Source: a virus
DNA: 22,241 nt
IMG/VR virus record: IMGVR_UViG_3300008262_000836
Span: 1-22,241 of that record
Strand: one strand, 5' to 3'
The position numbers and the translations under genes are program-made. Below the pieces are notes generated by a model. The model had not been told where the DNA came from, ran no database searches, and saw only the letters and a program-made list of their open reading frames with translations. Of the stretch, positions 1,336-19,312 are shown one piece after another; positions within the stretch are counted from its first letter, which is position 1; each line of letters begins with the position of its first letter.

Positions 1336-2212
1336 CAAACCATTTCTTCAAGAAGGGTATCATACCTGTGTGCATAATCTCACCACCTCTGATGGGAGAA
1401 CCTAACGACCGTAGTCGGCCAATCTCCAATCCAATGCCGGCACGTTTGCTGGCATACTTGGCCATCATCTCACCGCTGGCGAATATGCTATCTAAATCAT
1501 CATCGCTGCGAATAAGGACGCAACTTGAGAATTGCTTAGTCGGTGTTCCAAGGCCAGCAAGCACAGGTGTTGCCAAGGTAAAAAGTCCGTCCGAAGCCGC
1601 TGTGTAATACTCTTTGATGTAGCGCATTCTCGCTGAGTTCGGTTCTTCTGAGTGAAATACAGTAGCGGCCGCGACCATGTATCTAATTTGCGGAGTTTCA
1701 TATATTTGTTTGGTACTACGGTTCTTGACCAAGTACTTCTCTATTAATTGTTCAATGGCCGCATATGAATATGTTTCATCTTTTGAGTGATCCAACATGT
1801 CATTCATGCGGTTCCAGTCATCCTCTGTGTACCAATCCAGCAGTTCAGGAGTGTACAAGCCAGTGGCCACATTGGTCTTTACAATCTCATACAAGTGTGG
1901 TGGAGTATAACTGCCGTACACATCTTTGCGCAACATTGATAAACGTTGTTTACCAGCTACGAATTGATAGTTGGTGTGACCCACATCGGGATTTGACTCT
2001 ACGTCAATAAGGTCAACTATGGCACGTAAGGTAATCTCATCAATTTCCTTGGTGGTGATTCCATCATAAAAATGCAACTGTGCTTTGATCTCTACCATGC
2101 TCTGGCTCACGTCTGCAATGCCTGAACATATTTTGGCAATCTGGGTCTGCCATTTTTCCAATGCCAAAGGCTCCCGCTGCCCATGGCGCTTTACAACTGT
2201 TATTGTTTTCAT
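1259..2212 (-). CDS. nrdA: Ribonucleoside-diphosphate reductase alpha subunit, N-terminal part (frameshifted end)
   Basis: This is the N-terminal part of class Ia NrdA. Residues 1-90 form an ATP-cone allosteric domain (VVKRHGQREPLALEKW). The barrel then begins, with the first redox cysteine in FSSCVLIR (C231, equivalent to E. coli C225), AGIGLEIGRLRSLGSPIRGGE and SCSQG at 297-301. After SCSQG the expected GGVRGGAAT-like loop is absent, and the last 16 residues are unrelated and end at a stop, so the reading has shifted frame. The true reading resumes in another frame near 1309. The ATG at 2212 is preceded by GGAGT at a normal spacing. T4-like phages usually carry nrdA with nrdB; nrdB would be expected beyond the left edge. 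As it stands the gene cannot encode an active enzyme. Confidence 0.88.
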   Translation of the reverse strand: MKTITVVKRHGQREPLALEKWQTQIAKICSGIADVSQSMVEIKAQLHFYDGITTKEIDEITLRAIVDLIDVESNPDVGHTNYQFVAGKQRLSMLRKDVYGSYTPPHLYEIVKTNVATGLYTPELLDWYTEDDWNRMNDMLDHSKDETYSYAAIEQLIEKYLVKNRSTKQIYETPQIRYMVAAATVFHSEEPNSARMRYIKEYYTAASDGLFTLATPVLAGLGTPTKQFSSCVLIRSDDDLDSIFASGEMMAKYASKRAGIGLEIGRLRSLGSPIRGGEIMHTGMIPFLKKWFGDLRSCSQGRNRRNPSPSYGLWGCA

Positions 2213-4367: not shown

Positions 4368-5084
4368 TCACGTATTTAGCAGATAGAACTGCTCAACCCG
4401 GCGCCACCATAAATCTCTATATTTGTCGTACTCACTGCCCTCTAGTACAAACTCTTGATATTCTGGGGGTTTAATGATGTTGAATTGTTCATCTACATCG
4501 GGTTTCACGCACATGAGAATCACACCCTTACGTATGCGTGTGCCATGCACTTCATTGTGTGCTTCTGCATAGGCGCACAATTGCACAAAATAGTCCTCAA
4601 TCCATTCACGACGTTTAGGCTTGTTGCTTTGCTTGTAGTCTAGAATGGCTTCTTCATTCAAATGAATCCCAGCGCCATCTGTTGTGCCTGCATAGATCCC
4701 GGGAAAGTATAGTGGAACTTCAATGCCCCAAAATTCATTCACATTCTTCAAACCCTTTTCCACCACTACATGTGCCATGGCATGACTGGCCCAGCTGTAA
4801 GGATTTGTAGTGCGTTCTTTGATTTCACCTGTCTTTACATAGTCCTCAAGATAGGTGTGCATGCGTGTGCCGCGGTTGGCAGCTTCGGTGGTGATTTGTT
4901 GTGCTTTTTCTGCACCCACGCTGCGTCTCCATCGATTCAGTGCTTCTCGACTTTCTTCGCTTTTGGTCTTGTCAAGTATTGTGGTAACTGAAGGTAAGTT
5001 TTTGCCATCTGGTGTGGAGTAAAAACGTTTGCCTTCAACTACTACTCGGGGAATGGGTTGGTAATCAAATTTAGGATTGTACAT
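4368..5084 (-). CDS. PD-(D/E)XK nuclease, RecB/Cas4-like exonuclease family
   Basis: A 238-residue predicted nuclease. The core motifs are visible in order: a conserved His in RGTRMHTYLE (H76), GTTDGAG with D136, ILDYKQS with D149 and K151 (the D-x-K part of PD-(D/E)XK), and QLCAY at 168-172, matching the QxxxY motif that follows the core in RecB-like enzymes. These residues bind Mg2+ and cut DNA. Its probable role is phage recombination, DNA processing or host DNA degradation; the exact substrate is not visible. It is the last gene of the Fe-S/radical SAM operon and overlaps the radical SAM gene before it by 14 bases. The ATG at 5084 is chosen; a TTG one codon earlier is less likely. A CTAAATA box for the tailspike lies in its last codons. 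Confidence 0.82.
   Translation of the reverse strand: MYNPKFDYQPIPRVVVEGKRFYSTPDGKNLPSVTTILDKTKSEESREALNRWRRSVGAEKAQQITTEAANRGTRMHTYLEDYVKTGEIKERTTNPYSWASHAMAHVVVEKGLKNVNEFWGIEVPLYFPGIYAGTTDGAGIHLNEEAILDYKQSNKPKRREWIEDYFVQLCAYAEAHNEVHGTRIRKGVILMCVKPDVDEQFNIIKPPEYQEFVLEGSEYDKYRDLWWRRVEQFYLLNT
4373..4379 (-). promoter_or_regulatory. Late-promoter-like CTAAATA box before the tailspike
   Basis: GCTAAATACG on the minus strand ends 22 bases before the tailspike GTG. The same box occurs at a similar distance before other virion-type genes in this window. It overlaps the last codons of the upstream nuclease gene. By analogy with the T4 late box TATAAATA read by gp55, I call it a late promoter. Confidence 0.5.
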
Positions 5085-6471
5085 CAAGTTTCTTAAAGAA
5101 TGCCACCCGGTGAGTTATTTCTTGAGAGAATTGTTTTTCTATATCAATATCATTGGTCATGATATCTATCAATTCTTTGTCAGGGGCATCTAGTAGATTA
5201 TACAGTCTTTCGTTGAGCATAGCAAATGATTGGTCAGTCTTTTTGTCAAAATAGGCATTATGGCTTAGAAATTTTAACCATTGTTCATGACTTTCGGGCA
5301 TGTTCTTTAATTCTTCAATTGTGGAACTTATAAAATTAAAAAGCATTCGAGTCTGATTGGGATATTTCCTAAAGATTTTGTGTTCTAAACAGGTTTGTAA
5401 AAATTTAATCAATGTTGCTCGATATCGTATGGGTAGAGCCTCAATGTCAAGATGTTGTGTGCGGTCAATCAAATTAATAGGTTGAATGGGAAATGAATAA
5501 TGCTGTTGATCAAACCAAGCTGACCAATAGGTCATAAATTCATCAATGTACATGATGTTGTTGAGACTAAACACTGGCGTAATCAAACAACGCCATCTGG
5601 GAGTGTATGTTTTCTTTCCAGACACAATACTCAAAGTGTTTTGATGGCTCATCAGTGTGGCCAAGTTGTTTTCAATCTTTTCAAATTTAGCCGGCCAACG
5701 TAGATATTGATAATTGTCGCCCACTGAGTCAATGCTTAAATTGATATCTACATCTCTGAACTGTGACATCTTGCTCATGAGATCGTATCCTGGACGTACT
5801 GACAGTGCAGTGGTCACACGCAGATGCACACGCGGGGCAATGCCTTGAGCGATCATCCAGTTCAAGAGTTTTTTCATGCCTGGCTGCACAAGACTTTCCC
5901 CGCCAATGAAATGCACATAAAAATGCTCTACCTTGGGCAATTTTTCTAATATGGTGGTGGTAATCAATTCCCAGTGTTCTGGACTTGTACTAATATCTAT
6001 TTCATACTGTTCGCTCACAGGAGTATTGGTTATTCTGGCCCAGGTTGAGCTTTCTGTTTCAGTGCAACTTCTGCAGGCTAGATTACAAAAGTTACTGAAT
6101 TTGACCCGCAGTTCAAACTCAGGAAGTGTTTGTTTTTCTACAAAACTCTTCAATCTATCTTCAATGTATCCTAGAAATCCATTCACACGCTCGCTAGCAC
6201 CACCGTGGTCTTCCTCAGACTTACAGCGCCAGCATGCTTCGGGCCATTGTTCATTTAACTGTTGCTCTTTGATATCAGCAAATGGATCAGCGCCTGCACT
6301 TGGCACAAATGTTCTGTCGTCAAGACTGCAACAACAGGTTTTAAACACAGGTTCTGAACTGAATTCAGAATAACGTGTGTCTAGTGTGACATAGGGATAT
6401 ATGCACAGTGTGGGATTTTGTTCTGCCCACAACAGGCGTTGGTCTACAGACTTTTTCAGTGTGTCGGTCAT
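5071..6471 (-). CDS. Radical SAM protein, twitch type with N-terminal cysteine cluster
   Basis: A 466-residue radical SAM enzyme. The CX3CX2C motif that binds the SAM-cleaving [4Fe-4S] cluster is C129-C133-C136 (FCNLACRSC). GGESLVQPG at about 200 fits the GGE SAM-binding motif. An N-terminal segment has C23, C46-C48 (KTCCCSLDD) and C80/C83 (CWRCKSEED). This CC plus CxxC arrangement is seen in twitch-type phage radical SAM proteins and probably holds an auxiliary cluster. The substrate is unknown; such enzymes often modify peptides or proteins. The ATG at 6471 overlaps the iscA TGA (ATGA), and the 3' end overlaps the nuclease gene by 14 bases. Placement directly after iscA suggests its product receives clusters from it (inference). 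It is the same broad type as the gene at 16458-17648. Confidence 0.88.
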   Translation of the reverse strand: MTDTLKKSVDQRLLWAEQNPTLCIYPYVTLDTRYSEFSSEPVFKTCCCSLDDRTFVPSAGADPFADIKEQQLNEQWPEACWRCKSEEDHGGASERVNGFLGYIEDRLKSFVEKQTLPEFELRVKFSNFCNLACRSCTETESSTWARITNTPVSEQYEIDISTSPEHWELITTTILEKLPKVEHFYVHFIGGESLVQPGMKKLLNWMIAQGIAPRVHLRVTTALSVRPGYDLMSKMSQFRDVDINLSIDSVGDNYQYLRWPAKFEKIENNLATLMSHQNTLSIVSGKKTYTPRWRCLITPVFSLNNIMYIDEFMTYWSAWFDQQHYSFPIQPINLIDRTQHLDIEALPIRYRATLIKFLQTCLEHKIFRKYPNQTRMLFNFISSTIEELKNMPESHEQWLKFLSHNAYFDKKTDQSFAMLNERLYNLLDAPDKELIDIMTNDIDIEKQFSQEITHRVAFFKKLDVQS

Positions 6472-6788
6472 ACTCTAAAACTTTCTCCGCAACCGCAACG
6501 GTCACGTTCATTGGGATTGCGAAATTCAAATCCTTCATTTAGGCCGTTGCGCACAAAGTCCACAGTTACACCTTGCAAATAAGCACAACTCTTGGGATCT
6601 ACATATATTTGACATCCTGCACATTCAAAACATTGATCTTCTGCTTTGGGTGCGTCAACATATTCCAACACATAAGCCAGTCCTGAACAGCCTGTGGTTC
6701 TCACACCCAGTCTGATGCCCACACCGTGCCCGCGACGAGTCAGTGTTTGTTGTATTTTTCTAGCGGCTATTTCAGTTAAGGATACCAT
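6468..6788 (-). CDS. iscA: A-type iron-sulfur carrier protein (IscA/SufA/HesB family) with four extra cysteines
   Basis: A 106-residue A-type carrier, close to E. coli IscA length (107). It has the family's three cluster-binding cysteines: C34 in TTGCSGLAYVLEY, and C98 and C100 in CGCGESF. The NEGFEFRNPN segment before CGC is also typical. A-type proteins accept Fe-S clusters from IscU and pass them to apo-enzymes. Unusually, four more cysteines are present: C53-C56-C59 (CFECAGC, a CX2CX2C run) and C68 (KSCAYL), at positions where E. coli IscA has non-cysteine residues. The start MVSLTEIAA at 6788 matches the family N-terminus; an earlier ATG at 6815 would add a non-conserved MQYILFKEI. It overlaps the radical SAM gene upstream by 13 bases and the one downstream by ATGA. 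Confidence 0.92.
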   Translation of the reverse strand: MVSLTEIAARKIQQTLTRRGHGVGIRLGVRTTGCSGLAYVLEYVDAPKAEDQCFECAGCQIYVDPKSCAYLQGVTVDFVRNGLNEGFEFRNPNERDRCGCGESFRV

Positions 6789-7771
6789 GATTTCTTTGAA
6801 CAATATGTATTGCAAGCAGTCAACTGCTTGCCGGTATCAAATGTATCTATTATACGATTGAACCAGTCAATACCTTTTTCCAAGGTGTTAATTTCCGTTG
6901 ACCCTTGCAGTTGATGCACATCATTCACATAAGTAGCAGTTGATTTGCTAAAGTTTCCAATAAAACAGCAAGGATCTATTGTGCCATCGGCAGCAATATA
7001 CATACTTATCGGTCCCCAGTCGTGTAATGCTTTGCATCTGACTTCATTGTGGGGTACTGCTGGTAAATTACGAGCCCCGTGCCGATTGATCCATTCTTTT
7101 GTGATTTGGTCTGGATACGTTGTACCGGTGTCTTTTTTAAGTTCGAATACTTTTTGTCCGTTTTGATTGTATACCGGACCCCAGTTTCGACCATGATTTC
7201 TCAACTTGAATTTTCCAAAACCCAGTTGTTCACTGCGCCTGCGAGCTTCATCAATTTGATGACGATTGTGATCAAATTCAGTCATGCACCAATCTGCTCG
7301 ACCTCCTGCGGCAATAAAATATTCTGCGTTACGGATCACTGTTTCGTACAAGGTATTCTGTCTATACAGGTGATGTGTATCTTCTAAGCCGTCAATACAA
7401 AACTGTATTTCTACATCGATGGCAGCCAGTTTCTGCCAGAACTCCCGCCCTTGTGCACCCCCATTGGTAAATGCAGTAATGTCCAAGGGCTTTTGTCCTG
7501 CACGACCGTGTTGTCTAAACCAGGCCAGAATGTCCGGAGTTTCTGGGTTCATAACCAAATCTCCGAGGTTTCCGTTTATCAACACACAATCCAATTGCGC
7601 CACCACAAACTCAGGCACAATTTGTTTGATTTTATCCAGGGAGAGATTCAGTTCTTCATACCCAAAGTTATAAGGAAACCCGTGATAGTTCCGTAAGCAC
7701 ATTGGACATCTGGCATTGCACAATGAACTGATTTCTATTTGTAGCTCTCGTATGTCGTTGATACTAACCAT
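6776..7771 (-). CDS. Radical SAM protein with SPASM/twitch-like C-terminus (paralogue 2)
   Basis: A 331-residue radical SAM enzyme. C18-C22-C25 (SSLCNARCPMC) is the CX3CX2C cluster motif at the very N-terminus. A conserved core contains FCIDGLEDTHHLYRQNT. Near the C-terminus, CKALHDWGP...ADGTIDPCC fits the C-x(n)-G-x4-C start of SPASM/twitch auxiliary cluster domains, and CNTYC is near the end. It is a tandem paralogue of the gene at 7771-8745, alike over its whole length, with near-identical runs such as TEFDHNRHQIDEAR. The start at 7771 is chosen because it aligns with the paralogue, has AGGA four bases upstream, and overlaps the paralogue's stop as TAATG. An ATG at 7786 would add MRPGL inside the upstream gene. 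The substrate is unknown. Confidence 0.9.
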   Translation of the reverse strand: MVSINDIRELQIEISSLCNARCPMCLRNYHGFPYNFGYEELNLSLDKIKQIVPEFVVAQLDCVLINGNLGDLVMNPETPDILAWFRQHGRAGQKPLDITAFTNGGAQGREFWQKLAAIDVEIQFCIDGLEDTHHLYRQNTLYETVIRNAEYFIAAGGRADWCMTEFDHNRHQIDEARRRSEQLGFGKFKLRNHGRNWGPVYNQNGQKVFELKKDTGTTYPDQITKEWINRHGARNLPAVPHNEVRCKALHDWGPISMYIAADGTIDPCCFIGNFSKSTATYVNDVHQLQGSTEINTLEKGIDWFNRIIDTFDTGKQLTACNTYCSKKSWYP

Positions 7772-8745
7772 TAATCCTGGCCGCAATATATGTTACAAAT
7801 ATTCAATTGACCATCAGTTCCAAAGGTGTCTATCACACGATTAAACCAGGCAACGTTTTTTTCTAATGTATCTATATTTTCTCTTCGCAACAAAGATAAA
7901 TCATTTTGATTCCAGTTGTTGCTGGGCTTGGTATAGTTACCAATCAAACAACAAGGGTCTAGTGTACCATCAGCGGCAATGTACACACTTACAGGCCACA
8001 CAGTCAATGCTTCGCAGGTGATTTTTTTATGAGGTATAACTTTAGGATTGCGATCTTGCTGATTTACCCATTCGGTTGTGATCTGGTCAGGCAACTGATA
8101 TCCATTAGCAGTTTCTTGTTTGAGTACAAACACTTTTTTTCCATGCTGATCATACACAGGTCCCGAGTCTCTTCCGGTATAACGTGTGAAGAATCTATCA
8201 AACCCCAGTTTTGTACTACGCTCACGTGCTTCGTCAATTTGATGCCGATTGTGATCAAATTCAGTCATACACCAATGAGCACGGCCGCCGGCAGCCATGT
8301 AATAACCAGCGTTGCGTATCACTGTTTCGTATAGCGTATTTTGTCTGTACAAGTGATGTGTGTCTTCAAGTCCGTCAATACAGAAATTTATGTCTAAGTC
8401 AAGTGCTCCAAGTGCTTCCCAGAATTCACGTCCGCGAGCACCCCCATTGGTAAACACATCTATTTTAAAATTCTGATGTCCGTGTTCACGAAACCAAGCT
8501 AGAATTTCTGGCGTTTCGGGATTCATTAACATGTCGCCATAATCGCCATTGACCATCAAATGATCCAGTTGCGCTACTACCGACTCGGGAACAATTTCTT
8601 TAAGTCGAGCTAGTGAAAGATCTGTCTCTGCATAGCCAGTGTTGTGGGGGAATCCGTGAAAATTTCTAATGCACAAGGGGCATCTTGCATTGCATCGTGA
8701 GCTCAACTCAATATTGATTTCTCGTATGTCATCAATGCTAATCAT
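7771..8745 (-). CDS. Radical SAM protein with SPASM/twitch-like C-terminus (paralogue 1)
   Basis: A 324-residue radical SAM enzyme. C18-C22-C25 (SSRCNARCPLC) binds the catalytic [4Fe-4S] cluster. The C-terminal CEALTVWPV...ADGTLDPCC and CNIYC cysteines (C317, C321) fit a shortened SPASM or twitch auxiliary cluster domain. Its ATG follows the iscU TGA with no gap (TGAATG), and its stop overlaps the next paralogue, so the three genes are probably co-translated. The N-terminal SSRCNARCPLCIRN type resembles radical SAM families that modify peptides or proteins, but no precursor peptide is evident. A third, more divergent copy is at 18278-19312. Being directly behind iscU suggests dependence on phage-supplied cluster assembly (inference). 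Confidence 0.9.
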   Translation of the reverse strand: MISIDDIREINIELSSRCNARCPLCIRNFHGFPHNTGYAETDLSLARLKEIVPESVVAQLDHLMVNGDYGDMLMNPETPEILAWFREHGHQNFKIDVFTNGGARGREFWEALGALDLDINFCIDGLEDTHHLYRQNTLYETVIRNAGYYMAAGGRAHWCMTEFDHNRHQIDEARERSTKLGFDRFFTRYTGRDSGPVYDQHGKKVFVLKQETANGYQLPDQITTEWVNQQDRNPKVIPHKKITCEALTVWPVSVYIAADGTLDPCCLIGNYTKPSNNWNQNDLSLLRRENIDTLEKNVAWFNRVIDTFGTDGQLNICNIYCGQD

Positions 8746-9057
8746 TCAATGTCGTTTCCTGTAGTCTTCTACTGCGGCCTTGATTGCGTCCTCTGCTAGT
8801 ATTGAACAGTGAATCTTAACAGGAGGTAATGCTAGTTCTTCGGCGATTTCGCTGTTTTTGAGTTGACTGGCTTGGTCGATGTGCATGCCCTTGACCCACT
8901 CCGTAACAAGGCTTGAGCTCGCAATAGCCGATCCGCAGCCATACGTTTTAAAACGTGCATCTGTAATAATACCTGTATCATGGTCAACCTTTATCTGTAG
9001 TTTCATTACGTCGCCGCAAGCAGGTGCGCCAACCATACCAGTACCAATATCAGTATC
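8746..9057 (-). CDS. iscU: Fe-S cluster assembly scaffold IscU, N-terminus missing
   Basis: 103 residues of IscU, on which nascent [2Fe-2S] clusters are built from IscS sulfur. All three ligand cysteines are present: GAPACGD, YGCGSAIASSS and KIHCSILAEDA. The LPPVK motif bound by the chaperone HscA is also intact, so the protein could plug into the host HscA/HscB system. Similarity to beta/gammaproteobacterial IscU is extremely high, suggesting acquisition from a host. IscU normally has about 128 residues; the first 25 or so (the HYENPRNVGS region) are absent. Upstream of DTDIGTGM the sequence is the His-rich gene in another frame. The frame stays open to an ATG at 9162, but that stretch is not IscU. 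An ATG at 9036 could give a 96-aa product. Either the junction is a deletion or the gene is truncated. Confidence 0.85.
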   Translation of the reverse strand, partial: DTDIGTGMVGAPACGDVMKLQIKVDHDTGIITDARFKTYGCGSAIASSSLVTEWVKGMHIDQASQLKNSEIAEELALPPVKIHCSILAEDAIKAAVEDYRKRH

Positions 9058-9224
9058 ACAATAACAGCACCTACTACTCCGCCAATGATTAATGGTGCAA
9101 CCCAGCCACTGTGTCCGTAGTATCTGGCATGTCCATGATGACCGTGGTGGCCATGTCGCCAATGTTGTGCTAGAGCAGGCACAGTGACCATTAACAATGC
9201 TAGTGAAATTAAGATCTTTTTCAT
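9006..9224 (-). CDS. His-rich exported small protein, 3' end fused out of frame into iscU
   Basis: A 72-residue reading frame starting MKKILISLALLMVTVPALAQ, a textbook Sec signal peptide with an AxA site. Residues 21-38 hold eight histidines (HWRHGHHGHHGHARYYGHS), followed by a Gly-rich hydrophobic segment, WVAPLIIGGVVGAVIV. Residues after about 56 (ILILVLVWLAHLL) are iscU DNA read in the wrong frame, so the natural C-terminus is probably lost. The chance hydrophobic run would nonetheless make a long membrane segment. A periplasmic metal-binding or membrane role is suggested by composition only. It is the first gene of the Fe-S/radical SAM operon, with AAAGGAG at 9231-9237 and a strong promoter close upstream. 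Small His/Gly proteins like this are common in proteobacteria and some of their phages; I cannot name the family. Confidence 0.65.
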   Translation of the reverse strand: MKKILISLALLMVTVPALAQHWRHGHHGHHGHARYYGHSGWVAPLIIGGVVGAVIVILILVLVWLAHLLAAT

Positions 9225-9291: not shown

Positions 9292-9651
9292 TTAAACGCC
9301 GCGGGATTTGTTCATTGCCGATTTGGCAGCATTGGCCACTATGTCTTGTGCTTTGTTCACAGGCATAGCAACCGGTTCGGCAGGTTCGCCTTCACCTTTG
9401 AATATGATTTCTTGTGCTTCTGGGGTCATGGGTTCTAGCACTGAACTCAAGGGAGGTTGTCCCACAATCTCTTCAATGTTGTCTTCGGTCACATTGATAC
9501 CCAGACTTTGTGCAAGACTGATAAATGCACCTCGAGAAATTTGTTTTTGTGCGCCTTCGTCGTCAGCACGGCCAGCAAGAAAATTGACCAGCCCTAACAG
9601 TTCATCGGGGCTGGGTGTTGTGGATTCCGTTATGAATTCACGGAATCGCAT
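9292..9651 (-). CDS. Virion-type protein with capsid-targeting-like N-terminus
   Basis: A 119-residue acidic protein of unknown function, starting MRFREFITE. This strongly resembles the capsid targeting sequence of T4 internal head proteins (MKTYQEFIAE), which the gp21 protease cuts after [LI]xE. The remainder (DELLGLVNFLAGRADDEGAQ, then SRGAFISLAQSLGINVTEDN) looks helical, and the last third is Pro/Ala-rich. Its ATG at 9651 overlaps a TAA at 9653 (TAATG) that would be the natural stop of the upstream gene once that gene's frameshift is corrected. It is the last gene of the late block. A role as an internal head protein or packaging component is inference. Confidence 0.7.
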   Translation of the reverse strand: MRFREFITESTTPSPDELLGLVNFLAGRADDEGAQKQISRGAFISLAQSLGINVTEDNIEEIVGQPPLSSVLEPMTPEAQEIIFKGEGEPAEPVAMPVNKAQDIVANAAKSAMNKSRGV

Positions 9652-9734
9652 TATCTACGTGCTCGGCCCAGTCCAGCGCCGCCTGCGGCTGCTTCTGGTT
9701 CTGCAGGCATTTCAGGTGGCATTTCGCCGCCCAT
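9651..9734 (-). pseudogene. Displaced C-terminal tail of the 259-aa gene (frameshift)
   Basis: Reading from 9734 in the +1 frame gives MGGEMPPEMPAEPEAAAGGA and then GLGRARR before a TAA at 9653-9651 that overlaps the next ATG as TAATG. This Pro/Ala/Glu-rich tail continues the composition of the upstream gene better than that gene's own ending (GANGRRNAT), and it restores the tight TAATG coupling typical of this window. I read it as the true C-terminus, lost to a small indel near 9735. Confidence 0.6.
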
Positions 9735-10491
9735 TTGCACCAGGTGCTGGAGCACTGGCCATGCCAGCGTCAGGAGCAGGTGCTTGACCTGTTACCACGC
9801 CCAGGGCTTGATCCAAGGCAGCTTTGGCGCCTTGTAAGTTTTGTACCAAGCCAGCAAGAGCGGCTGTAGCATCTGTGTTGAATTGTGTGGCTTGATCAAT
9901 GCCCACTTGGTTCTTGATAGAGTCAACTAGAGCTGGCAATTCTTTGAACTGCAACTCAGTTACATCTTCCAACATGCCTTGCATTTTGTCAACCATGTCT
10001 TGTGCGGCCAACACAACTTGAGCTTGTTGAACTTCTGATTCGTTTAGTCGAGTCATTACACGACGCAGTCGGCTTTCGGCCTGCATCATGGCAGCGCCAG
10101 CAACTAGCTTTTGCTCGTCTGGATTGAGTGTTTGACCACTTTGACTCTTCTTCAAGGCAGCGGCAAGTTTAGGATCCTTAACTTGCACAGTGCTTGGTTG
10201 TGCAGGCTTGGCACCAGCGCCAGTGGGCGCAACAGGCACAGCTTCTTCAGCCATACGTGCGGTCAAGGCCTGTTCCATCATTACCAGTTTAAGGTAACCT
10301 GGGTTTTGTTGGCTTTGATATCTGTCTGACCCTGAACGATGCTCACGTAGCAAACCTTGCACACGTTGCAACAGGTGCTGAGTTTGACGCTGTGTCAAGC
10401 GGTCAAATTCAATATTAGAACCAAAGTAACTTTCGAAAACTTTAGCGATTTGTTTTGTTGGCGACGGGGCGGCCAGTTCTTGCAGTTTCAT
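9712..10491 (-). CDS. Ala/Gln-rich virion-type protein of unknown function (frameshifted at C-terminus)
   Basis: A 259-residue protein beginning MKLQELAAPSPTKQIAKVFESYFGS. The middle (about 130-215) is a predicted long helical or coiled-coil region (EVQQAQVVLAAQDMVDKMQ, then VTELQFKELPALVDSIKNQV). The C-terminus is low-complexity Ala/Pro/Gly. The start MKLQE contains an LxE site near the N-terminus, as in head proteins cut by a gp21-type protease. The ATG at 10491 has AGAGG upstream and a CTAAATA box 23 bases upstream. Its first 50 bases overlap the end of the gene at 10442-10939 in another frame. The real product probably ends at 9651 after correcting a frameshift. A scaffold, head or tail accessory role is possible; I do not recognise the family. 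Confidence 0.7.
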   Translation of the reverse strand: MKLQELAAPSPTKQIAKVFESYFGSNIEFDRLTQRQTQHLLQRVQGLLREHRSGSDRYQSQQNPGYLKLVMMEQALTARMAEEAVPVAPTGAGAKPAQPSTVQVKDPKLAAALKKSQSGQTLNPDEQKLVAGAAMMQAESRLRRVMTRLNESEVQQAQVVLAAQDMVDKMQGMLEDVTELQFKELPALVDSIKNQVGIDQATQFNTDATAALAGLVQNLQGAKAALDQALGVVTGQAPAPDAGMASAPAPGANGRRNAT

Positions 10492-11962: not shown

Positions 11963-13855
11963 TCACGCACCTTGAGGGTTATTTCTCTGCCTATTTTGAG
12001 CGGCAAAAGCATTGGGGTCAAATCGATTCACAGCTTTGGCATAGCCTGCAGGGGTGGCCATGACCCAGCCTTCTTGTCCCGGATGCTCTAGATCCGCTTG
12101 CTTTAGGATATCCATCTTTAGATCATGCAATAACAAGAACGCTGTAAATGCCGCTGCCAGTGCAGGGGTATTGCTAGTAGGGCTTTCCAAGTATTCCACA
12201 ATGTTGCGGAACTTGCTGGGAGTTACCTTGCTTTGTAACCATTCACCAAACTCAGGCAACAGTGTTTGTGGATTCAGTGGTGCACCAACCTTGGTGTTGA
12301 TGTAGTCCACGCACAGTTTGGCAAGGTCGGTGATCTTGTGTGCCCGCAGTTCAGCAGGGTTAAACAAGGTAGCAATGGCAGCACCATCTGTACGAATCAA
12401 CTGCTTGAGTTGTTTTACTTTGGCAGGTTCAGCAGTCAGCGCCCGGGGAGTTGCAGGACGCTCTAGCATGAGTCCAGGAACTTCATTAAACGTCACACCC
12501 TTTAACGGCTGACGTGCATCGCCTGCATCAGAGTACATGCTGTGTACTGCAATGCCAATGTCACTGTTGGCTATGCGTTGTCCCAAGTTACTTCGAGCTG
12601 GAATTTTGTACTCAACAGTGTTGGGACGGAAAACATAGTTTCCTGCAATCTCAGGAGGTGTTGACATGTACAACAAGTCGCCTTTGACATAGCCACGGAA
12701 ATTGGCGGGCAAACTAGCTTCCAGCACAGGGAATAGCTGTGCATACAAGTTGATCAGTTCATCACGATTTCCTGACCGTGTGCGTTGAATAGCTGCCATC
12801 ATTTCTGGACTGGTGGCAAGACCGTCGTAGCCTTTAGCTTCAAATCCTGACCCATCAGTTAACACAAACTCGCCTGTGGCGGGTTTACGACCCCAGATCA
12901 CAGCAGGTTTGCCGTCCCACTTGGCAGTGGTTGTTTTGGGATTTTCAGTGGCGTGTTGTACAATTTCCAGTGCATCTTGAATGCCTTGTGTGCCACGACG
13001 AAACACTAGATCTTCCAAGTGTTCAATGCCCTTGGCTCTGCCGCCCACACCAGGCTCTTCTGCTTCTACTAGAGCAACATAGCCACGATTGACAATACGA
13101 TCGCGCAGGCGTCCTAGGAAACTCACATCATCTTCTGACACTGACAGTTGAGGTTCTTTTAATCCTTCACGTGCTAGATATTCACGGAAGTCTTTTAGCT
13201 TGGCATCTTTATTGGGATCATTGCTCAATGCGGCGTAGATGCTTTCCACATTCTTTAAATTTTCTTTTGTGAATGCAGGACCCAATAACACTCGTGCCAC
13301 CTGGCTGGCATCCAGGCCGCCTTTGACCAGTTCTTCAGTTGATCGACTGAACATGCCATTTGCACCCACTTTGAACCCCAGGGCCTTGGCCATTGAACTC
13401 ATTAGCACATTACGATGCATGCCTTTGTATGCGGAGCCGTCAGCACCGCCATAATAGAACGTGCCCCAGTCTAGATCAGGAAAAAACATAAAGTCAGTTT
13501 GCACATAGCCTTTGTTGGGATCGCCGGCAATGGGAGTACGGAAATGTACTTCGCCTTTTTTCACAACCCATTCACGCGGGTCAAGATTTTGACTGGTCAC
13601 AATCTTTTGTAATGCACCAGCCAATTGATCTTTATCAATTTCATTTAGGTCCACAGCAAGATCTAAATCGCCAGATGTGGGTTTGCGACCTGTGGATCCC
13701 AGCCAACGTTCCGGAGGAAATTGAATTCCCAGAATGTTTTCGATATAAGCAATAGTTGCAGGCACATCTGCTTGATTGATACGTTGTGTGAGTGGCTGGC
13801 CCTGCTTGTCTTTAAAGACATTGCCGCCTTCTAATAGTTTAGCTAGATATTTCAT
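11963..13855 (-). CDS. Nucleotidyltransferase fused to ATP-dependent ligase-like domain
   Basis: A 630-residue two-domain protein. Residues 50-125 carry a pol-beta-type nucleotidyltransferase signature: G53-S54, D63-L-D65 (SGDLDLAVD) and a third acid, D121 (VQTDFMFF). From about 270 a second domain carries a covalent nucleotidyl transfer motif, K312-W-D-G315 (AKWDGKPAVIWG), then GYVKGDLLY (389-396, like motif III) and VEYKIP (414-419, like motif IV of DNA/RNA ligases). Both sets of catalytic residues look intact, so it could adenylylate itself and join or repair RNA or DNA ends; the substrate is unknown. I recognise this as a large uncharacterised protein type of marine T4-like phages. The N-terminus MKYLAKLLEGG has an LxE site like capsid-targeted proteins. 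The stop of the upstream gene lies one base before its ATG. A simple structural role cannot be excluded. Confidence 0.72.
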   Translation of the reverse strand: MKYLAKLLEGGNVFKDKQGQPLTQRINQADVPATIAYIENILGIQFPPERWLGSTGRKPTSGDLDLAVDLNEIDKDQLAGALQKIVTSQNLDPREWVVKKGEVHFRTPIAGDPNKGYVQTDFMFFPDLDWGTFYYGGADGSAYKGMHRNVLMSSMAKALGFKVGANGMFSRSTEELVKGGLDASQVARVLLGPAFTKENLKNVESIYAALSNDPNKDAKLKDFREYLAREGLKEPQLSVSEDDVSFLGRLRDRIVNRGYVALVEAEEPGVGGRAKGIEHLEDLVFRRGTQGIQDALEIVQHATENPKTTTAKWDGKPAVIWGRKPATGEFVLTDGSGFEAKGYDGLATSPEMMAAIQRTRSGNRDELINLYAQLFPVLEASLPANFRGYVKGDLLYMSTPPEIAGNYVFRPNTVEYKIPARSNLGQRIANSDIGIAVHSMYSDAGDARQPLKGVTFNEVPGLMLERPATPRALTAEPAKVKQLKQLIRTDGAAIATLFNPAELRAHKITDLAKLCVDYINTKVGAPLNPQTLLPEFGEWLQSKVTPSKFRNIVEYLESPTSNTPALAAAFTAFLLLHDLKMDILKQADLEHPGQEGWVMATPAGYAKAVNRFDPNAFAAQNRQRNNPQGA

Positions 13856-13856
13856 G

Positions 13857-14543
13857 TTAAGGCTGCGGGTTTTTCAGTAGTTTTTGTTGCAGTGTCAATG
13901 CCATTTTGTGAGAAGGGTCATTGGCGTTGTAGGGTTTGCCATTATACAACGCATTACCGCTAGGGTCAAATGTCACTGTGGCAACTTGATTGTTGGCAGC
14001 ATCGTCAGCCCCTTGACTGAAGTTTTTAATGCTTTTGGCACGTTGAATACTTGTGGCCAGGGGCAGCCAAACATCAGCTCCAGGATTGGGTTTTTGTGTG
14101 TTGGCAATGGCAGCGGTGATCTGTGGCTTGATTTCAGTTTTTAACAAGTTGGCCTGCCCAGATCCATCGTCTTTTAATTCGCCAATGTCAACACCAGCCA
14201 GGGCATTTACAAACTGATATAATTCTTTTTCCAGTACACCACGATCAAGTTGAGCCGCTGACGTAACAGGATCGTTCGTTTTTGGGTCGACAGATTTCAA
14301 CAGTAGTTGCTGAACATTTTGTGCCCAACGTTTTTGCATTTCTTTGGCCAATGGTGCCAGTAATGTCTTGTTCATTTCGCCAGCGGCACCTTGACGTAAA
14401 TTACTAGCAACTTTTGGTCCAAGACGGGTTTGGTCCAAGGAATCCAAGGGATTGGCCACCCCTGCTGATTTGTACAGCATGTTGGTAAGTCCAGACACTA
14501 CATCTTCTTTTATTGGCTTGCGTGTTATTTCATGAATCTGCAT
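13857..14543 (-). CDS. Virion-type protein of unknown function, 228 aa
   Basis: A 228-residue mainly helical protein beginning MQIHEITRKPIKEDVVSGL. The middle is rich in Gln/Leu/Ala helices (EMQKRWAQNVQQLLLKSV). The C-terminal region has a conserved-looking stretch, ATVTFDPSGNALYNGKPYNA, that reads like a small beta-hairpin module. The start at 14543 is chosen because AGGA lies six bases upstream. An ATG at 14579 lies further inside the upstream gene and adds a non-conserved segment. It overlaps the upstream gene by 14 bases and ends one base before the 630-aa gene's ATG. The N-terminal [LI]xE pattern resembles that of its neighbours. The function is unknown. Confidence 0.72.
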   Translation of the reverse strand: MQIHEITRKPIKEDVVSGLTNMLYKSAGVANPLDSLDQTRLGPKVASNLRQGAAGEMNKTLLAPLAKEMQKRWAQNVQQLLLKSVDPKTNDPVTSAAQLDRGVLEKELYQFVNALAGVDIGELKDDGSGQANLLKTEIKPQITAAIANTQKPNPGADVWLPLATSIQRAKSIKNFSQGADDAANNQVATVTFDPSGNALYNGKPYNANDPSHKMALTLQQKLLKNPQP

Positions 14544-14778
14544 TGGTTTTCCTAACGGATCTGGAAAACTTTCCAGCATCCTTTGTTCTTATGGCATTGA
14601 GCAATTTTCTTGTGAGATTTTCTGCTTGTTCAGCACCAAACTCATGCTCAATTTGTTCTACTAATCTGATGGCACTGGCGATGATATTGTCAGCACGACT
14701 TTCGATTATCAGGCGACGATCACGCTCAACATACATTGAGTCTAATTCTTCTAACAAACTGCGTGTCTTTTTTTGCAT
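14530..14778 (-). CDS. Small charged helical phage protein
   Basis: An 82-residue, strongly charged, all-helical protein (SLLEELDSMYVERDRRLIIE, then RADNIIASAIRLVEQIEHEF, ending KFSRSVRKTNADS). It has no membrane segment or known motif. It resembles small conserved proteins found among head and tail genes of marine T4-like phages. The ATG at 14778 is the first gene behind a CTAAATA box, so it opens the minus-strand late block. It overlaps the following gene by 14 bases. Its role is unknown, perhaps assembly or head-completion. Confidence 0.72.
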   Translation of the reverse strand: MQKKTRSLLEELDSMYVERDRRLIIESRADNIIASAIRLVEQIEHEFGAEQAENLTRKLLNAIRTKDAGKFSRSVRKTNADS

Positions 14779-14860: not shown

Positions 14861-16477
14861 ATGACCAGTCAAATCAATCCATCAAATATCGATGCTACAT
14901 ATCCTGTAGCAGGGCAACCCAATAACACACAGGGTTTCCGCGATAATTTCACTGCCACACAGACCAATTTCAACTATGCCGCAACTGAAATAACAGATTT
15001 ACAAAACAAAGCAGTACTAAAGGCAGCACTCACAGGCACCACGTTGGACAACAACATGAATGATGCACTGCTTTATGCTGCCAAGATACAAGATTTTAGC
15101 GCAACTGCGGTGAATCTTACAACCACTTCGGGACCAGTCACAGTGGATTATACCACCGGACATTATCAAAGACTGGCACCGTCCACTGGCAGTGTGAGTT
15201 TGGGTTTTGTGAAATGGCCACCCAGTGGTAGTTATGGTTATCTTAAATTGCAAATTGTTGTTACCAATACTGCTTACACAGTGACATTGCCTGCGTCTGT
15301 GACACTTGGTGTCACTGGTATACAAGGATATTCGGGCGGAGTTATTACATTTGCTGCCACAGGCACATATGAATTTGGATTTGGTACTAGCGATGGTGGA
15401 ACCACAATCACTGTGTTTGATTTAAATCGTCCGTTAAGTACATTTTCTGGTCCAGTGAATATCACAGCCAACACAGTGAGTACCAGCACTACCACAGGTG
15501 CATTAACAGTTGCTGGCGGTGTAGGTATTGTGGGCAACATAAACATTGGCGGTAATTTAAAGACTTATACCAGCTCAGGCAATGTGGCGTTTCAGGCTCT
15601 GGACACTGGCATTGTGGAATTTAGAACTCCTGCCCTGATCCCGGCCAACACCGCTGGTGCACTAAACATTGTGGGCAGCGCCGATGGTTCGTATCAGCCA
15701 GTATACAACACTGGAAGCATGGTGCATGTGACAGGCAATGATGGTGTGTCATGCAGAACCACACTTGACACATTTGGAACCGGCGCTGCCGTTCAGTCAT
15801 CACTGGTAATGCGATTAGCTCGCGGCACAGCGGCCGCGCCAACAGCAGTGCAGTCTGGTGATATTTTAGCACGAATAACTGGTTCAGGATTTGGCAACGC
15901 CAGTGGCTATGTGTTGGCCGCAGGCAACATTGGAACCTTGGGTATTGACTTTGTTTCCTTGGAAAACTACACCACTGCCAACGCAGGCAGTGCTTTGAAG
16001 TTTTACACCTCGCCTGTTGGCGCTGTTACCAAAACACTCAGCGCCAACATCACTGCCAATGTGAGTACATTCCCAAGTATATCAAGCACAGGCAACGTTC
16101 TTACCAGTGCAGGTAATGTGCTAATCACAGGCGGCTTGGGAGGAGTGGGGTATACTAATGGTGCTGGTGGTGCGGTTGTGCAGACTGGTAACAAAGGTGG
16201 TGGCGTTGGACTCAACAAACAGTCTGGTGAGATCACCATGCAAAACACCAACTTGGCTGCAGACACTATAGTAAGTTTTGTATTGACCAACACCACAATT
16301 GGTGCAAATGATTTATTAGTATTACAGCATCAGAGTGGTGGCACACTGGGTGCGTACACTCTCAATGCCTCTTGTGCAGCAGGTAGTGCCACAATATATG
16401 TTAGAAACAATACTGCTGGTACACTTGGCGAAGCATTGGTCATACGCTATGCTGTGATCAAAGGTGCTGTTGCCTAA
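14861..16477 (+). CDS. Fibre-like structural protein
   Basis: A 538-residue Gly/Thr/Ser/Ala-rich protein with few charged residues, typical of phage fibres. The N-terminal segment (QINPSNIDATYPVAGQPNNT, then QGFRDNFTATQTNFNYAATE) resembles the conserved head of fibre or baseplate-attached proteins in marine T4-like phages. The middle has TTTGALTVAGGVGIVGNINI, a beta-repeat motif common in fibre shafts. The C-terminus (YTLNASCAAGSATIYVRNNT) looks like a compact beta domain. It is one of only two plus-strand genes in the window, with its own late-type box, a good AAGGA site, and a terminator 30 bases after its stop. Its last 20 bases overlap the convergent radical SAM gene. Receptor binding or virion decoration is likely. 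Confidence 0.78.
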   Translation: MTSQINPSNIDATYPVAGQPNNTQGFRDNFTATQTNFNYAATEITDLQNKAVLKAALTGTTLDNNMNDALLYAAKIQDFSATAVNLTTTSGPVTVDYTTGHYQRLAPSTGSVSLGFVKWPPSGSYGYLKLQIVVTNTAYTVTLPASVTLGVTGIQGYSGGVITFAATGTYEFGFGTSDGGTTITVFDLNRPLSTFSGPVNITANTVSTSTTTGALTVAGGVGIVGNINIGGNLKTYTSSGNVAFQALDTGIVEFRTPALIPANTAGALNIVGSADGSYQPVYNTGSMVHVTGNDGVSCRTTLDTFGTGAAVQSSLVMRLARGTAAAPTAVQSGDILARITGSGFGNASGYVLAAGNIGTLGIDFVSLENYTTANAGSALKFYTSPVGAVTKTLSANITANVSTFPSISSTGNVLTSAGNVLITGGLGGVGYTNGAGGAVVQTGNKGGGVGLNKQSGEITMQNTNLAADTIVSFVLTNTTIGANDLLVLQHQSGGTLGAYTLNASCAAGSATIYVRNNTAGTLGEALVIRYAVIKGAVA

Positions 16478-17648
16478 TTAATTTGTAAAATTCAGGAAAC
16501 GTAGAGGCTAGATCTTGTTTGCGCAACAGGTCTAGCTTTTTTGTTGTGCTCCAAAACTTTGCCCATAACTCGGGTTGATTGTCTAGTGGCATGTCCATGA
16601 AGTCTAGTATGCTAGCAACTTGATGTCCGGCTCCTGCAAGATGTGTTCTAACTTGTGCTTTGACTAGATCAGGCAACACCCGCACATTGATATGTTGTGG
16701 ATGATGCACCATGTTAAAGAAGTAGCCTATACCACGCTGTTTAAAATACTGTTCAATGTCTTGAATGTACCAGATGTTGTAGGCACACACAGTTACACAA
16801 ACGCACATGCTGATATTAGGGTGTTTGCGTACTAGTTCTTGATAGCGATCCAGATTCTTTTCTACTGTACTCCAAGTTTCTCCATAGCGTATGTAATCAA
16901 AGTGCGGGCCAATACCATCTACACTGATATCTAGTGCCACATGTTTGAATTGGGTCAATGTATCAATGTATCGTTGATTCCAAATTGTACCATTGGTATT
17001 GATGTGCAGACTTTGTTCATGTGCTAGATTTTTATCCACAGCCTGTTTCAAGATGTCAAACACATTACTCAACAGCATGGGCTCAGCACCATAGATGTCA
17101 TAGTATTTGACATCAGTCAACCAGGACTCAAGTTCTGTCCATAATCTAGTGTTTTCGGGTTCGTAACTACTCTTAATTCTTCCCCAGCTGGCCAGATACT
17201 TTTTGTAGTCAGGTTCTTGCTTGTGTGCTTCTAGTTCCCAATAGTCACGATACCATTTGCTTGACACTTCGGGCCAGCATGTTCTACAGGCCAGGTTACA
17301 GGTGTTTCCAGGTTTGAGATCAACCAGCTGTGGACGATGTGCGTTTTGTGGCAGGTACTTGAACTGCTGATTGGCCACAAGTCTTCGACTGCTACGTCCG
17401 GCATTTTCTTCTGCCCAGCAAGCACTACAGTTAGGGTGCTGAATGCCTGCATCTAGGTCTGCTTGTATCTGTTGTCTAGTAGGACTAGTCCATGCATCCT
17501 GCAATGTGTTGACGTCAAGGTACAAGTCTTGTTGATTGTTGTCCTGTAGGTATGTTTGGCTGTGACAACACAACAGGCATCTGCCCGAATTGTGTAATGC
17601 AATGCCTGAATCTGCCCAGGCGCAATATAATGTTGACTCTTGTTTCAT
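16458..17648 (-). CDS. Radical SAM protein, twitch type with N-terminal cysteine cluster
   Basis: A 396-residue radical SAM enzyme. C117-C121-C124 (TCNLACRTC) is the catalytic CX3CX2C. LHINTNGT follows at a normal distance, and LDISVDGIG matches a conserved core strand. N-terminal cysteines C9, C24, C27/C28 and C74/C77 (NCSACWAEE) have the same layout as in the 5071-6471 protein, suggesting an auxiliary cluster. The substrate is unknown. It is divergent to the 2OG oxygenase gene: the two ATGs are only nine bases apart if 17658 is used, so the promoter must lie within coding sequence. Its 3' end overlaps the fibre gene stop by 20 bases and contains that gene's terminator on the other strand. 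I see no clear ribosome binding site before the ATG at 17648. Confidence 0.87.
   Translation of the reverse strand: MKQESTLYCAWADSGIALHNSGRCLLCCHSQTYLQDNNQQDLYLDVNTLQDAWTSPTRQQIQADLDAGIQHPNCSACWAEENAGRSSRRLVANQQFKYLPQNAHRPQLVDLKPGNTCNLACRTCWPEVSSKWYRDYWELEAHKQEPDYKKYLASWGRIKSSYEPENTRLWTELESWLTDVKYYDIYGAEPMLLSNVFDILKQAVDKNLAHEQSLHINTNGTIWNQRYIDTLTQFKHVALDISVDGIGPHFDYIRYGETWSTVEKNLDRYQELVRKHPNISMCVCVTVCAYNIWYIQDIEQYFKQRGIGYFFNMVHHPQHINVRVLPDLVKAQVRTHLAGAGHQVASILDFMDMPLDNQPELWAKFWSTTKKLDLLRKQDLASTFPEFYKLIRQQHL
16507..16542 (+). terminator. Rho-independent terminator of the fibre-like gene
   Basis: GCTAGATCT pairs with GGTCTAGC plus one base (nine pairs including one G-T). A one-base bulge and three more pairs then close a five-base loop, TGCGC, followed directly by TTTTTT at 16537-16542. 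It is oriented for the plus-strand gene ending at 16477. It lies wholly inside the antisense coding sequence of the convergent radical SAM gene, where it encodes KKLDLLRKQDLA. Confidence 0.8.
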
Positions 17649-17657
17649 GTTGTAAAT

Positions 17658-18323
17658 ATGTATATGGAAACTACCCTCAACACTAAATTCATTGGTATTC
17701 GACGCTTTGTAAGCGAACTAAAATTAGAGTTACCATTTGAGCGAGCGCAGATTATCCAGGAACTTGATGACGAAGCGTGGGTGCCGCACGGAGACGTTGC
17801 TCCTGTGGGACACAATCCTTGGCCCAACACACGCTACAAGTGTCTGCGCCCGCAATGGAAGCATAAAGCACTCACTGCCGTCAGTAGATACTTTGGCAGC
17901 GTAGAATTCAAGCGTCAAGCCATTGACTGGATGTATCAAGAGTACCACGGTATTGATGTTACTTGGGGTATGGGTGCTGATGAAATGTGCCGTAAATCAA
18001 GAACACACATTGAGTTTACCAAAGACATGCCTGGCTTTGTTAACGACATACACACAGATTATCGTCAACTGATTGCCACAGGTATGATTTATTTCAGCGA
18101 TCACGACACTCCAGATCTAAGTTCTTATTTTTACACTGATCAAAATCGCAGTAATCCCACACGCATTACAACTGCATTTGGAGATGGATGGTGGCACATG
18201 AACAACTACGATACCTGGCACGAGGGATGGAATCGCACTGATCAAGTGAGATACAGTGGGCTATTGGGCTTGACTATCTACACCGCCGACTTGCCTGAAG
18301 ACGATCCACAATTCCCACACTGA
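17658..18323 (+). CDS. 2-oxoglutarate/Fe(II)-dependent oxygenase
   Basis: A 221-residue predicted dioxygenase. The metal-binding facial triad is visible as H132-x-D134 (NDIHTDYRQ) and H188 (DTWHEGW). R198 (QVRYSGLLGLTIY) follows at the spacing expected for binding 2-oxoglutarate. ATGMIYFSD after the first motif is a typical core strand. Such enzymes hydroxylate proteins, nucleic acids or small molecules and are frequent in T4-like phage genomes; the substrate here is not evident. The ATG at 17658 is chosen; ATG 17664 is also possible, and neither has a clear ribosome binding site. A TTG at 17640 would overlap the divergent gene. The last 46 bases overlap the convergent radical SAM gene. It stands between two radical SAM genes, so this segment is dense in iron enzymes. 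Confidence 0.82.
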   Translation: MYMETTLNTKFIGIRRFVSELKLELPFERAQIIQELDDEAWVPHGDVAPVGHNPWPNTRYKCLRPQWKHKALTAVSRYFGSVEFKRQAIDWMYQEYHGIDVTWGMGADEMCRKSRTHIEFTKDMPGFVNDIHTDYRQLIATGMIYFSDHDTPDLSSYFYTDQNRSNPTRITTAFGDGWWHMNNYDTWHEGWNRTDQVRYSGLLGLTIYTADLPEDDPQFPH

Positions 18324-19312
18324 CGATTGCATATAACCAAGCGTCCTTGATCAAACTCAGGGATAGACCAGGTTTTTTCAATTTCCTCAAACCAAGCCAT
18401 ACACGCTTCCAAACTGTGTTCTATAGCATTGTTAAAACCAATCATGTGTGAGAACTGTGCATTGGCAGCATCGTGCCAGGCACCTCGTCCAAATGTTTTT
18501 GGTTCAAATCCAAGATAGCAACAAGGATACACATCTCCTGTGCTGGACACATAGATTGATTTTTTCTTTTCAACTTCACATGCAATAGGTTGCGGAGTTT
18601 GCCCTTGTGTGATTTCTTCAAATGTAGTTGACCCATTGATCCGTCGATTTAACATGTCATCAAAACTGCTGTACCACTCCGGCTGTTGACCAATAAAGTG
18701 CGTGAGTTTTCCTTTGCGGTCAAACACAGGCCCGACATTTCTGCCATAGTCCATGAGCTGGAAACGTTTAAATCCCATGCTCTCGCTAAGTTCACGTGCT
18801 GTCTGTTGCTGATGACGGTTGTGATCAAAGTCAATCATACGCCAAGTAGCATGCCCTCCCGCATCAATAAATGCTCGAGCATTTCGAATCACTGTGCTGT
18901 ACACAGTATTTTGTCTGTACAGGCTGTGTGTATCTTCTAGGCCATCAATGCAGAAAAACACACAGACATCAAGTTCAGCAAGCCTTTGCCAGAAGTCTGC
19001 GCCACGTGCTCCGCCATTGGTGCTGATACCTACGTGTATACGTGATGAATGCGATTGAAAATATTCGATTATATCAATAGTCTCTGTATTCATTACTGCA
19101 TCGCCAAAGTTACCATTGATATACAATTCATCTAGCTGTTGAATAAATTTAGGTTGAAAAATGCGTTGCGCATCTTCAAGTGTTAAGTCGCGCTCAGTGT
19201 ACCCATTGTTGTATGGGTATCCGAAGAAACTTCTAGGGCACAATGGACAATTTGCATTGCACCTACTAGAAATTTCCAAATGTACATGACGTATTTGGTC
19301 AAATGCGTACAT
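18278..19312 (-). CDS. Radical SAM protein with SPASM-like C-terminus (paralogue 3)
   Basis: A 344-residue radical SAM enzyme of the same subfamily as the tandem pair at 6776-8745. It has C18-C22-C25 (SSRCNANCPLC) at identical positions, the core FCIDGLEDTHSLYRQNTVY, and DFDHNRHQ. The C-terminal CEVEKKKSIYVSSTGDVYPCC fits CX(9-15)GX4C of SPASM domains. The final CNRQCGNCG adds an extra CxxC not present in the tandem pair, so the auxiliary cluster may be more complete. Its ATG overlaps the helicase TAA (TAATG), meaning it is translationally coupled to the replicative helicase and probably expressed with replication genes. The 3' end overlaps the convergent oxygenase by 46 bases. The substrate is unknown. 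Confidence 0.88.
   Translation of the reverse strand: MYAFDQIRHVHLEISSRCNANCPLCPRSFFGYPYNNGYTERDLTLEDAQRIFQPKFIQQLDELYINGNFGDAVMNTETIDIIEYFQSHSSRIHVGISTNGGARGADFWQRLAELDVCVFFCIDGLEDTHSLYRQNTVYSTVIRNARAFIDAGGHATWRMIDFDHNRHQQQTARELSESMGFKRFQLMDYGRNVGPVFDRKGKLTHFIGQQPEWYSSFDDMLNRRINGSTTFEEITQGQTPQPIACEVEKKKSIYVSSTGDVYPCCYLGFEPKTFGRGAWHDAANAQFSHMIGFNNAIEHSLEACMAWFEEIEKTWSIPEFDQGRLVICNRQCGNCGSSSGKSAV

Follow-up and report, generated by a model that had tools for sequence, protein, structure and literature searches.

A single gene on the minus strand of the DNA that we analyzed (the window, a whole stretch of 22,241 nucleotides from a freshwater virus) encodes a 630-amino-acid protein in which a nucleotidyltransferase is fused to a ligase-like domain. 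We give slightly better than even odds (about 0.52) to the reading that this fusion protein is packaged in the phage head and repairs the ends of nucleic acids, with RNA a likelier substrate than DNA. Contigs of 320 kb and 331 kb (L007 and L009) carry very similar genes, which suggests that the window is from a jumbo phage.

The fusion gene and its parts are as follows.

11963..13855, minus strand: nucleotidyltransferase-ligase fusion gene (630-aa frame starting at ATG)
13829..13855, minus strand: leader MKYLAKLLE (residues 1-9), capsid-targeting-like, with LxE directly before GGNVF
13244..13828, minus strand: predicted pol-beta-type nucleotidyltransferase domain (residues 10-204), with GSTG at 53-56, D63, D65, D121, W130, K144-G145, and R148
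13040..13243, minus strand: connector (residues 205-272), helical and low-confidence in the AlphaFold model
12020..13039, minus strand: putative covalent-ligase-like domain, DUF6267 (residues 273-612), from Pfam, motifs, and the model of a homologue
12911..12922, minus strand: motif I, KWDG (K312), invariant in 96 distinct homologues
12668..12685, minus strand: candidate motif III, KGDLLY (D393; Asp replaces the usual Glu), invariant
12086..12448, minus strand: mostly helical insertion between motifs IIIa and IV (about residues 470-590, ~120 residues), from AlphaFold
12023..12073, minus strand: probable motifs IV and V, E595-G-W-V to K607-A-V-N-R611, from sequence comparison and invariance

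The fusion protein and its nucleotidyltransferase domain

Residues 277-612 of the protein match Pfam DUF6267 (PF19782) with E = 5.1e-29 and 102.2 bits, as compared to a gathering cut-off of 27; its match in PHROGs is to a family without a functional annotation. In viral contigs, we found 138 full-length loci that encode fused homologues, or 96 distinct proteins. Twelve residues (G53, S54, D63, D65, D121, K312, D314, G315, D393, E595, K607, and R611) are invariant in all 96 of these, and dN/dS is mostly 0.05-0.12 in the seven comparisons that we computed, which indicates purifying selection. Given the DUF6267 match, the invariance, and the low dN/dS, the catalytic motifs are not chance matches. 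An earlier, sequence-only reading of this gene had described a complete pol-beta triad (D63, D65, and D121) and an adenylylation motif (KWDG, with K312). All of these residues are where it placed them, and the conservation of K312, D63, and D65, on which its proposal depended, is complete. Its motif III (KGDLLY, at residue 391) is also in place, with an invariant D393, but with Asp where Glu is usual. In our scan of bacterial genomes, every contig returned was phage-like or metagenomic and had DUF6267 of the cyanophage type, so we have no evidence for a cellular origin.

An AlphaFold model of the whole protein, built with 60 sequences, had a mean pLDDT of 75 (about 80-95 in the nucleotidyltransferase; poor in the final 20 residues). 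When we compared this model to the PDB with Foldseek, most of the best rows were family X DNA polymerases, and the solved structures nearest to the nucleotidyltransferase were pol beta, pol lambda, pol mu, and TdT. VIA-align placed residues 15-204 on residues 139-335 of pol beta (Z = 10.6, rmsd 3.4, 163 residues). The predicted fold of the N-terminal part thus agrees with the pol-beta superfamily, as the earlier reading had expected, and the signature of that superfamily (a GS motif, DxD, and a third Asp) is formed by invariant residues within this fold. The 8-kDa domain of family X enzymes is absent, as it is in Pol X of African swine fever virus (ASFV). At the level of sequence, the Pfam Pol X domain had no match in the nucleotidyltransferase at E up to 10, and the RlaP profile (PF10127) matched none of seven members, while it does find the RlaP of phage Atu_ph07. 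Using hhalign, we also compared an alignment of the nucleotidyltransferase to an approximate pol beta fragment; SGDxD alone matched, which lends no support.

Partners of the nucleotidyltransferase and the DUF6267 domain

The same kind of nucleotidyltransferase is found unfused in other jumbo phages. A search with the N-terminal domain identified relatives in Atu_ph07 (E = 2e-15), Phosso (2e-13), and PA5oct (1e-6), and the alignment with unfused relatives preserves the G-G/S-G-x-x-F start, GSxG, DxD, the third Asp, W, and KG..R. (When the Phosso protein was used as the query, no relatives were found in viral contigs.) In Atu_ph07 and Phosso, the nucleotidyltransferase gene overlaps, and lies directly 3' of, a gene whose product has KLDG along with ligase motifs. 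PA5oct encodes a KIDG ligase upstream of its nucleotidyltransferase, with two genes separating them. The Atu_ph07 ligase is named RNA ligase in UniProt, and it matches Pfam RNA_ligase below the cut-off (E = 0.002). Atu_ph07 also encodes RlaP and Rnl1 elsewhere in its genome, so the pair would be an additional system there; in the 320-kb and 331-kb relatives of the window, we found neither RlaP nor Rnl1.

DUF6267 also has other partners. It is present in over 460 phage records of the collection that we searched, mostly from marine cyanophages. In S-PM2 its fusion partner is a HIGH-type cytidylyltransferase-like domain, and in other cyanophages such a protein is encoded by the adjoining gene. 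These fusions and adjacencies suggest a ligase module that is paired with two unrelated nucleotidyltransferase folds. The HIGH-type partner might serve to recycle NMN if the ligase uses NAD+.

Several neighboring genes were seen in passing. In EniLVp02, Melnitz, and L350, the gene adjoining DUF6267 upstream has possible PD-(D/E)xK nuclease motifs, as judged by eye (L233:4994-5893, L234:4881-5966, and L350:2154-2933). In Flavobacterium phage immuto, a 907-aa protein (L087:4797-7520) adjoins a free nucleotidyltransferase that starts with MGGNVF; it appears to combine a putative HExxH metallopeptidase with an NMN-adenylyltransferase-like domain (a weak match in Pfam) and another region that resembles a nucleotidyltransferase. 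Soon after the nucleotidyltransferase of Agrobacterium phage Atu_ph07 are tandem genes of ~250 aa (L085:9606-16441); the two that we read have a common LYRG-type stretch, which suggests an expanded family.

From the motifs and the models, we identify DUF6267 as a probable covalent ligase domain of the KxDG type. The lysine of motif I is also present in distant DUF6267 proteins, and hhalign of DUF6267 against the three split ligases aligned motifs I, IV, and V (E = 0.008). The sequence-only reading had proposed VEYKIP (residues 414-419) as motif IV. We rejected this candidate because it comes after motif III but ahead of motif IIIa; a likelier place for motifs IV and V is 595-607. In our judgement, motif IV is probably EGWVMATP (E595) and motif V is probably YAKAVNR (K607). 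This stretch reads EGWVMATPAGYAKAVNR in the fusion protein and SPEGFVAIKDGxAxKLVDRxEFS at the C-terminus of cyanophage DUF6267, and the C-termini of the split ligases read EGYVIRTPSMQVKIVDK (PA5oct), EGVVFETTFKTKIFD (Atu_ph07), and EGVVIS...KVVDK (Phosso). The spacing from E to K is 12 in the fusion protein, in cyanophage EGFVAIKDGxAxK, and in PA5oct EGYVIRTPSMQVK. MAFFT, in four modes, favors another register, with cyanophage NGYRVTSPEGF against EGWVMATPAGY of the fusion protein and a gap of 7 residues. We prefer the ungapped register because E and K are then conserved and as far apart as in the split ligases, and because of a hairpin in the AlphaFold model (596-601/604-609).

As a stand-in for the fusion protein's own domain, we modeled a cyanophage-type DUF6267 homologue (L088; pLDDT 76). 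A plain Foldseek search with this model gave no significant match. With VIA, the best 15 rows were all covalent ligases (Z = 6.0-6.7), led by the Naegleria RNA ligase (a modest Z of 6.7 over about 180 residues). T4 Rnl2, TbREL1, and T4 Rnl1 were further rows, and DNA ligases ranked lower, so for the C-terminal part as well, the structure comparison is consistent with what the earlier reading had expected. DNA ligase IV was also listed by Foldseek for the whole-protein model (E = 2e-3). Sequence searches of PDB families with the fusion protein or with profiles gave nothing usable. When the modest Z is combined with the motif set, placement of DUF6267 in the covalent nucleotidyltransferase/ligase superfamily is well supported by sequence and modeling, and the models favor the RNA-ligase side of the superfamily. 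Just 23 residues follow K607, so the C-terminal OB domain that is usual in DNA ligases, and that a capping enzyme would also have after motif V, is predicted to be missing.

These results bear on whether the substrate might be DNA. A packaged protein with a minimal family-X-like polymerase and a ligase could fill short gaps and seal nicks or ends of the incoming genome, in the way that ASFV uses its own Pol X and ligase. This would fit the DNA polymerases and the DNA ligase IV among the structural matches and the position of the fusion gene within a replication cluster (see below), and the 174-aa Pol X of ASFV works without the 8-kDa and thumb domains (PMC5330486). We nevertheless consider DNA repair unlikely, if a serious contender, because the ligase domain is closer to RNA ligases, the protein ends too soon after motif V for an OB domain, the Pol X domain is unmatched, and the 320-kb and 331-kb relatives encode a separate, ATP-dependent DNA ligase. 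(The NAD-dependent ligase, PF01653, is absent from the relatives.)

We give little credence to the idea that the two domains put nucleotides on a host protein or a small molecule for tagging or signaling, as T4 Alt does with ADP-ribose, because the set of ligase motifs (I, IV, and V, with a candidate III) and the KxDG ligases that are encoded separately in other phages point to polynucleotide ends. That T4 Alt is itself a packaged, nucleotide-using enzyme (PMC9026906) speaks for tagging, as does the small-molecule type of the HIGH nucleotidyltransferase that is the fusion partner in S-PM2 and the neighbor in cyanophages.

A capsid-type leader and the genome setting

The sequence-only reading had placed this gene amid virion genes and not with the genes for replication. 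The first half of this claim stands, as the neighbors include virion-type genes, but the island that contains them lies between the genes for primase/helicase (gp61/gp41) and NrdA. The order of the island is the same in PA5oct: nine genes of the window are collinear (gp61, gp41, the 82-aa gene, the nucleotidyltransferase, the 259-aa gene, an exonuclease, a 598-aa gene, a small gene, and NrdA), and many genes in the PA5oct block are annotated with ESI-MS/MS and "structural protein." The neighbors that matter here are:

14530..14778, minus strand: 82-aa virion protein in PHROG 11854 (head and packaging); PA5oct, Phosso, and Atu_ph07 have homologues at the corresponding position
13857..14579, minus strand: upstream neighbor, 240 aa, with start probably at MQIHEITRK
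9712..10491, minus strand: 259-aa virion protein, PHROG 14154, whose PA5oct homologue (EST35_0237) is in virions (ESI-MS/MS)
9292..9651, minus strand: 119-aa protein whose N-terminus, MRFREFITE/S, is another capsid-targeting-like leader

Phosso and Atu_ph07 have a gene of similar size at the position of the 240-aa neighbor, with no detected sequence similarity. Elsewhere in the window are five radical-SAM-like genes with CxxxCxxC-type motifs (minus strand; 5071-6471, 6776-7786, 7771-8745, 16458-17648, and 18278-19312), and amid them are IscA-like (6468-6815) and NifU-like (8746-9162) genes; such an Fe-S/radical-SAM set is unusual for a phage block. NrdA is split into two frames near 1259-1340 (minus strand), as compared to a single 776-aa frame in the 331-kb relative, which could reflect either a genuine lesion or misassembly.

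A likely answer to the puzzle of a repair enzyme among virion genes is the leader. Wherever the start of a fused homologue could be read, a few residues precede GGNVF. Among 40 distinct leaders, which vary in length from 5 to 9 residues, all end in LxE/GG: position -3 is always L and position -1 is always E, while nine different residues occur at -2. Unfused nucleotidyltransferases have no leader and start with MGG (Atu_ph07, Phosso, and immuto) or MSG (PA5oct), and the M-GG start of the first three coincides with the N-terminus that a cleaved fusion protein would have. The consensus for cleavage by gp21, to which the leaders conform, is L/I-x-E, which is consistent with the published LIE-9 site and the data for positions 8 and 10. 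In T4, the prohead protease gp21 removes a 10-residue capsid-targeting sequence from internal proteins (PMC9026906, PMC10229621). Both the 320-kb and the 331-kb relatives encode gp21 (Peptidase_S77; E about 1e-23), which is not in the 22-kb window. The sequence pattern suggests that the leader is a capsid-targeting tag and that the fusion protein is packed in the head.

Related proteins show a similar pattern. In Melnitz-like phages, DUF6267 itself has a leader (for example, MINFSSFLTE/D). Cyanophage DUF6267 has none; its partner cytidylyltransferases have a leader of the type M(K/R)F..F(I/L)xE in 77 of 77 cases. One of these, the citidylyltransferase T4-GC190 of S-SM1, adjoins DUF6267 (T4-GC71), has the leader MKKFSAFLNE/A, and was detected in purified virions by mass spectrometry (PMC3037559). 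Similarly, the PA5oct nucleotidyltransferase (EST35_0231) is named "structural protein" and annotated with ESI-MS/MS; the separate ligase of PA5oct has no such mark.

Could the enzyme act, unpackaged, in the cell that produces the phage, with the LxE leader a fortuitous or structural N-terminus? The unmarked PA5oct ligase and the leaderless cyanophage DUF6267 are in line with this. We find it improbable, given that the L and the E of the leader are fixed even as its length and middle residue vary, that the predicted cut coincides with the start of the unfused relatives, and that homologous and partner proteins are present in virions.

Across the 331-kb relative, we counted 35 LxE starts versus 22.7 ± 4.5 expected, a moderate excess with a crude gene finder. 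In this relative (G002), other proteins with capsid-targeting-like leaders are clustered at 158434-162670 and 184569-187913. Their leaders (MFRHLLE, MKITDVIKE, MKINQIIHE, and MRAHEFLSE) make them candidates for further injected proteins.

Proposed mechanism and known systems

The sequence-only reading had suggested end-healing plus sealing, and this is supported by both predicted folds, by the invariance of K312, D63, and D65, and by the unfused pairs that are encoded near each other. In the mechanism that we propose, the fusion protein would be made late, and its leader (MKYLAKLLE) would bring it into the prohead core. There the cut by gp21 would fall behind LLE, so that the mature enzyme would begin with GGNVF, and this enzyme would be ejected along with the DNA. 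Once inside the next host, its pol-beta-type domain (D63/D65/D121, with two metals) might put one or a few nucleotides on a 3' end. The DUF6267 domain would then adenylylate itself on K312, transfer AMP to a 5' phosphate, and seal the ends. The likeliest substrate would be RNA that was broken by a host defense, such as tRNA, which would be mended ahead of phage gene expression. We infer each of these steps, from cleavage, packaging, and ejection to catalysis and substrate.

That RNA is preferred over DNA is a judgement, as the solved structures nearest to the nucleotidyltransferase are DNA polymerases. RNA is favored by the structural neighbors of the ligase, by the lack of an OB domain, by the presence of another gene for a DNA ligase in the relatives, and by the precedent of RlaP (PMC7824862); the resemblance to pol X and the analogy to ASFV (PMC5330486) favor DNA. 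We put somewhat short of an even chance on a broader proposal: a head-carried, injected, one-chain enzyme that adds nucleotides and then seals and that, as a preloaded counter-defense, would mend broken tRNA or incoming DNA ahead of any phage gene expression, with DUF6267 as a ligase module for two unrelated nucleotidyltransferase folds.

If the enzyme is packed in the head, broken nucleic acid could be mended from the start of infection, and if it is injected, phages would bring nucleic-acid repair along rather than making it after RNA-cleaving defenses of the host strike. The reading as a ligase gives DUF6267, which has so far had no assigned role, a function that can be tested, and it bears on the neighbor of DUF6267, the virion "citidylyltransferase" that was reported without a function in 2010. 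Taken together with the leader, the occurrence of the two activities as a fusion and as split pairs predicts a GGNVF N-terminus in virions, adenylylation of K312, and nucleotide transfer that depends on D63/D65.

In the open-access literature, we found no description of the fusion, of DUF6267 as a ligase, or of a version with a capsid leader. The cooperation of a nucleotidyltransferase and a ligase in phage RNA repair is already known in concept: RlaP works with a ligase in RNA repair and is predicted to replace lost nucleotides before sealing (PMC7824862). What appears to be new, from sequence comparison, is the invariant LxE/GG leader on every fused homologue. Like the fusion protein, RlaP (PF10127) with phage Rnl1 or Rnl2 partners a nucleotidyltransferase of the pol-beta superfamily with a covalent ligase, but RlaP belongs to another sequence family, and the fusion is a single chain with a capsid-type leader.

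Atu_ph07, Phosso, and PA5oct share with the window a homologous nucleotidyltransferase, its catalytic set, and a block after gp41 and the 82-aa gene; they differ in having two genes, a leaderless nucleotidyltransferase, and ligases that do not match DUF6267. The cyanophage proteins have a homologous C-terminal domain, encoded between gp41 and the gp61 or NrdA genes, but it stands alone or is fused to a HIGH-type nucleotidyltransferase (S-PM2) instead of a pol-beta type. The Naegleria RNA ligase, T4 Rnl2, T4 Rnl1, and TbREL1 resemble DUF6267 in the core fold and in motifs I, IV, and V, as judged by structure and motif comparison, with undetectable sequence similarity; unlike them, the fusion protein has Asp in motif III and a large helical insertion ahead of motif IV. 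In ASFV, a minimal family-X-like domain and a ligase also occur in one virus, but as separate proteins without such a leader, and the ASFV ligase acts on DNA. Finally, IPI-III and Alt of T4 have a similarly short N-terminal leader with a gp21-type L/I-x-E end. The mature T4 proteins are not homologous to the fusion protein, and they are delivered with the DNA, whereas packaging of the fusion protein is predicted.
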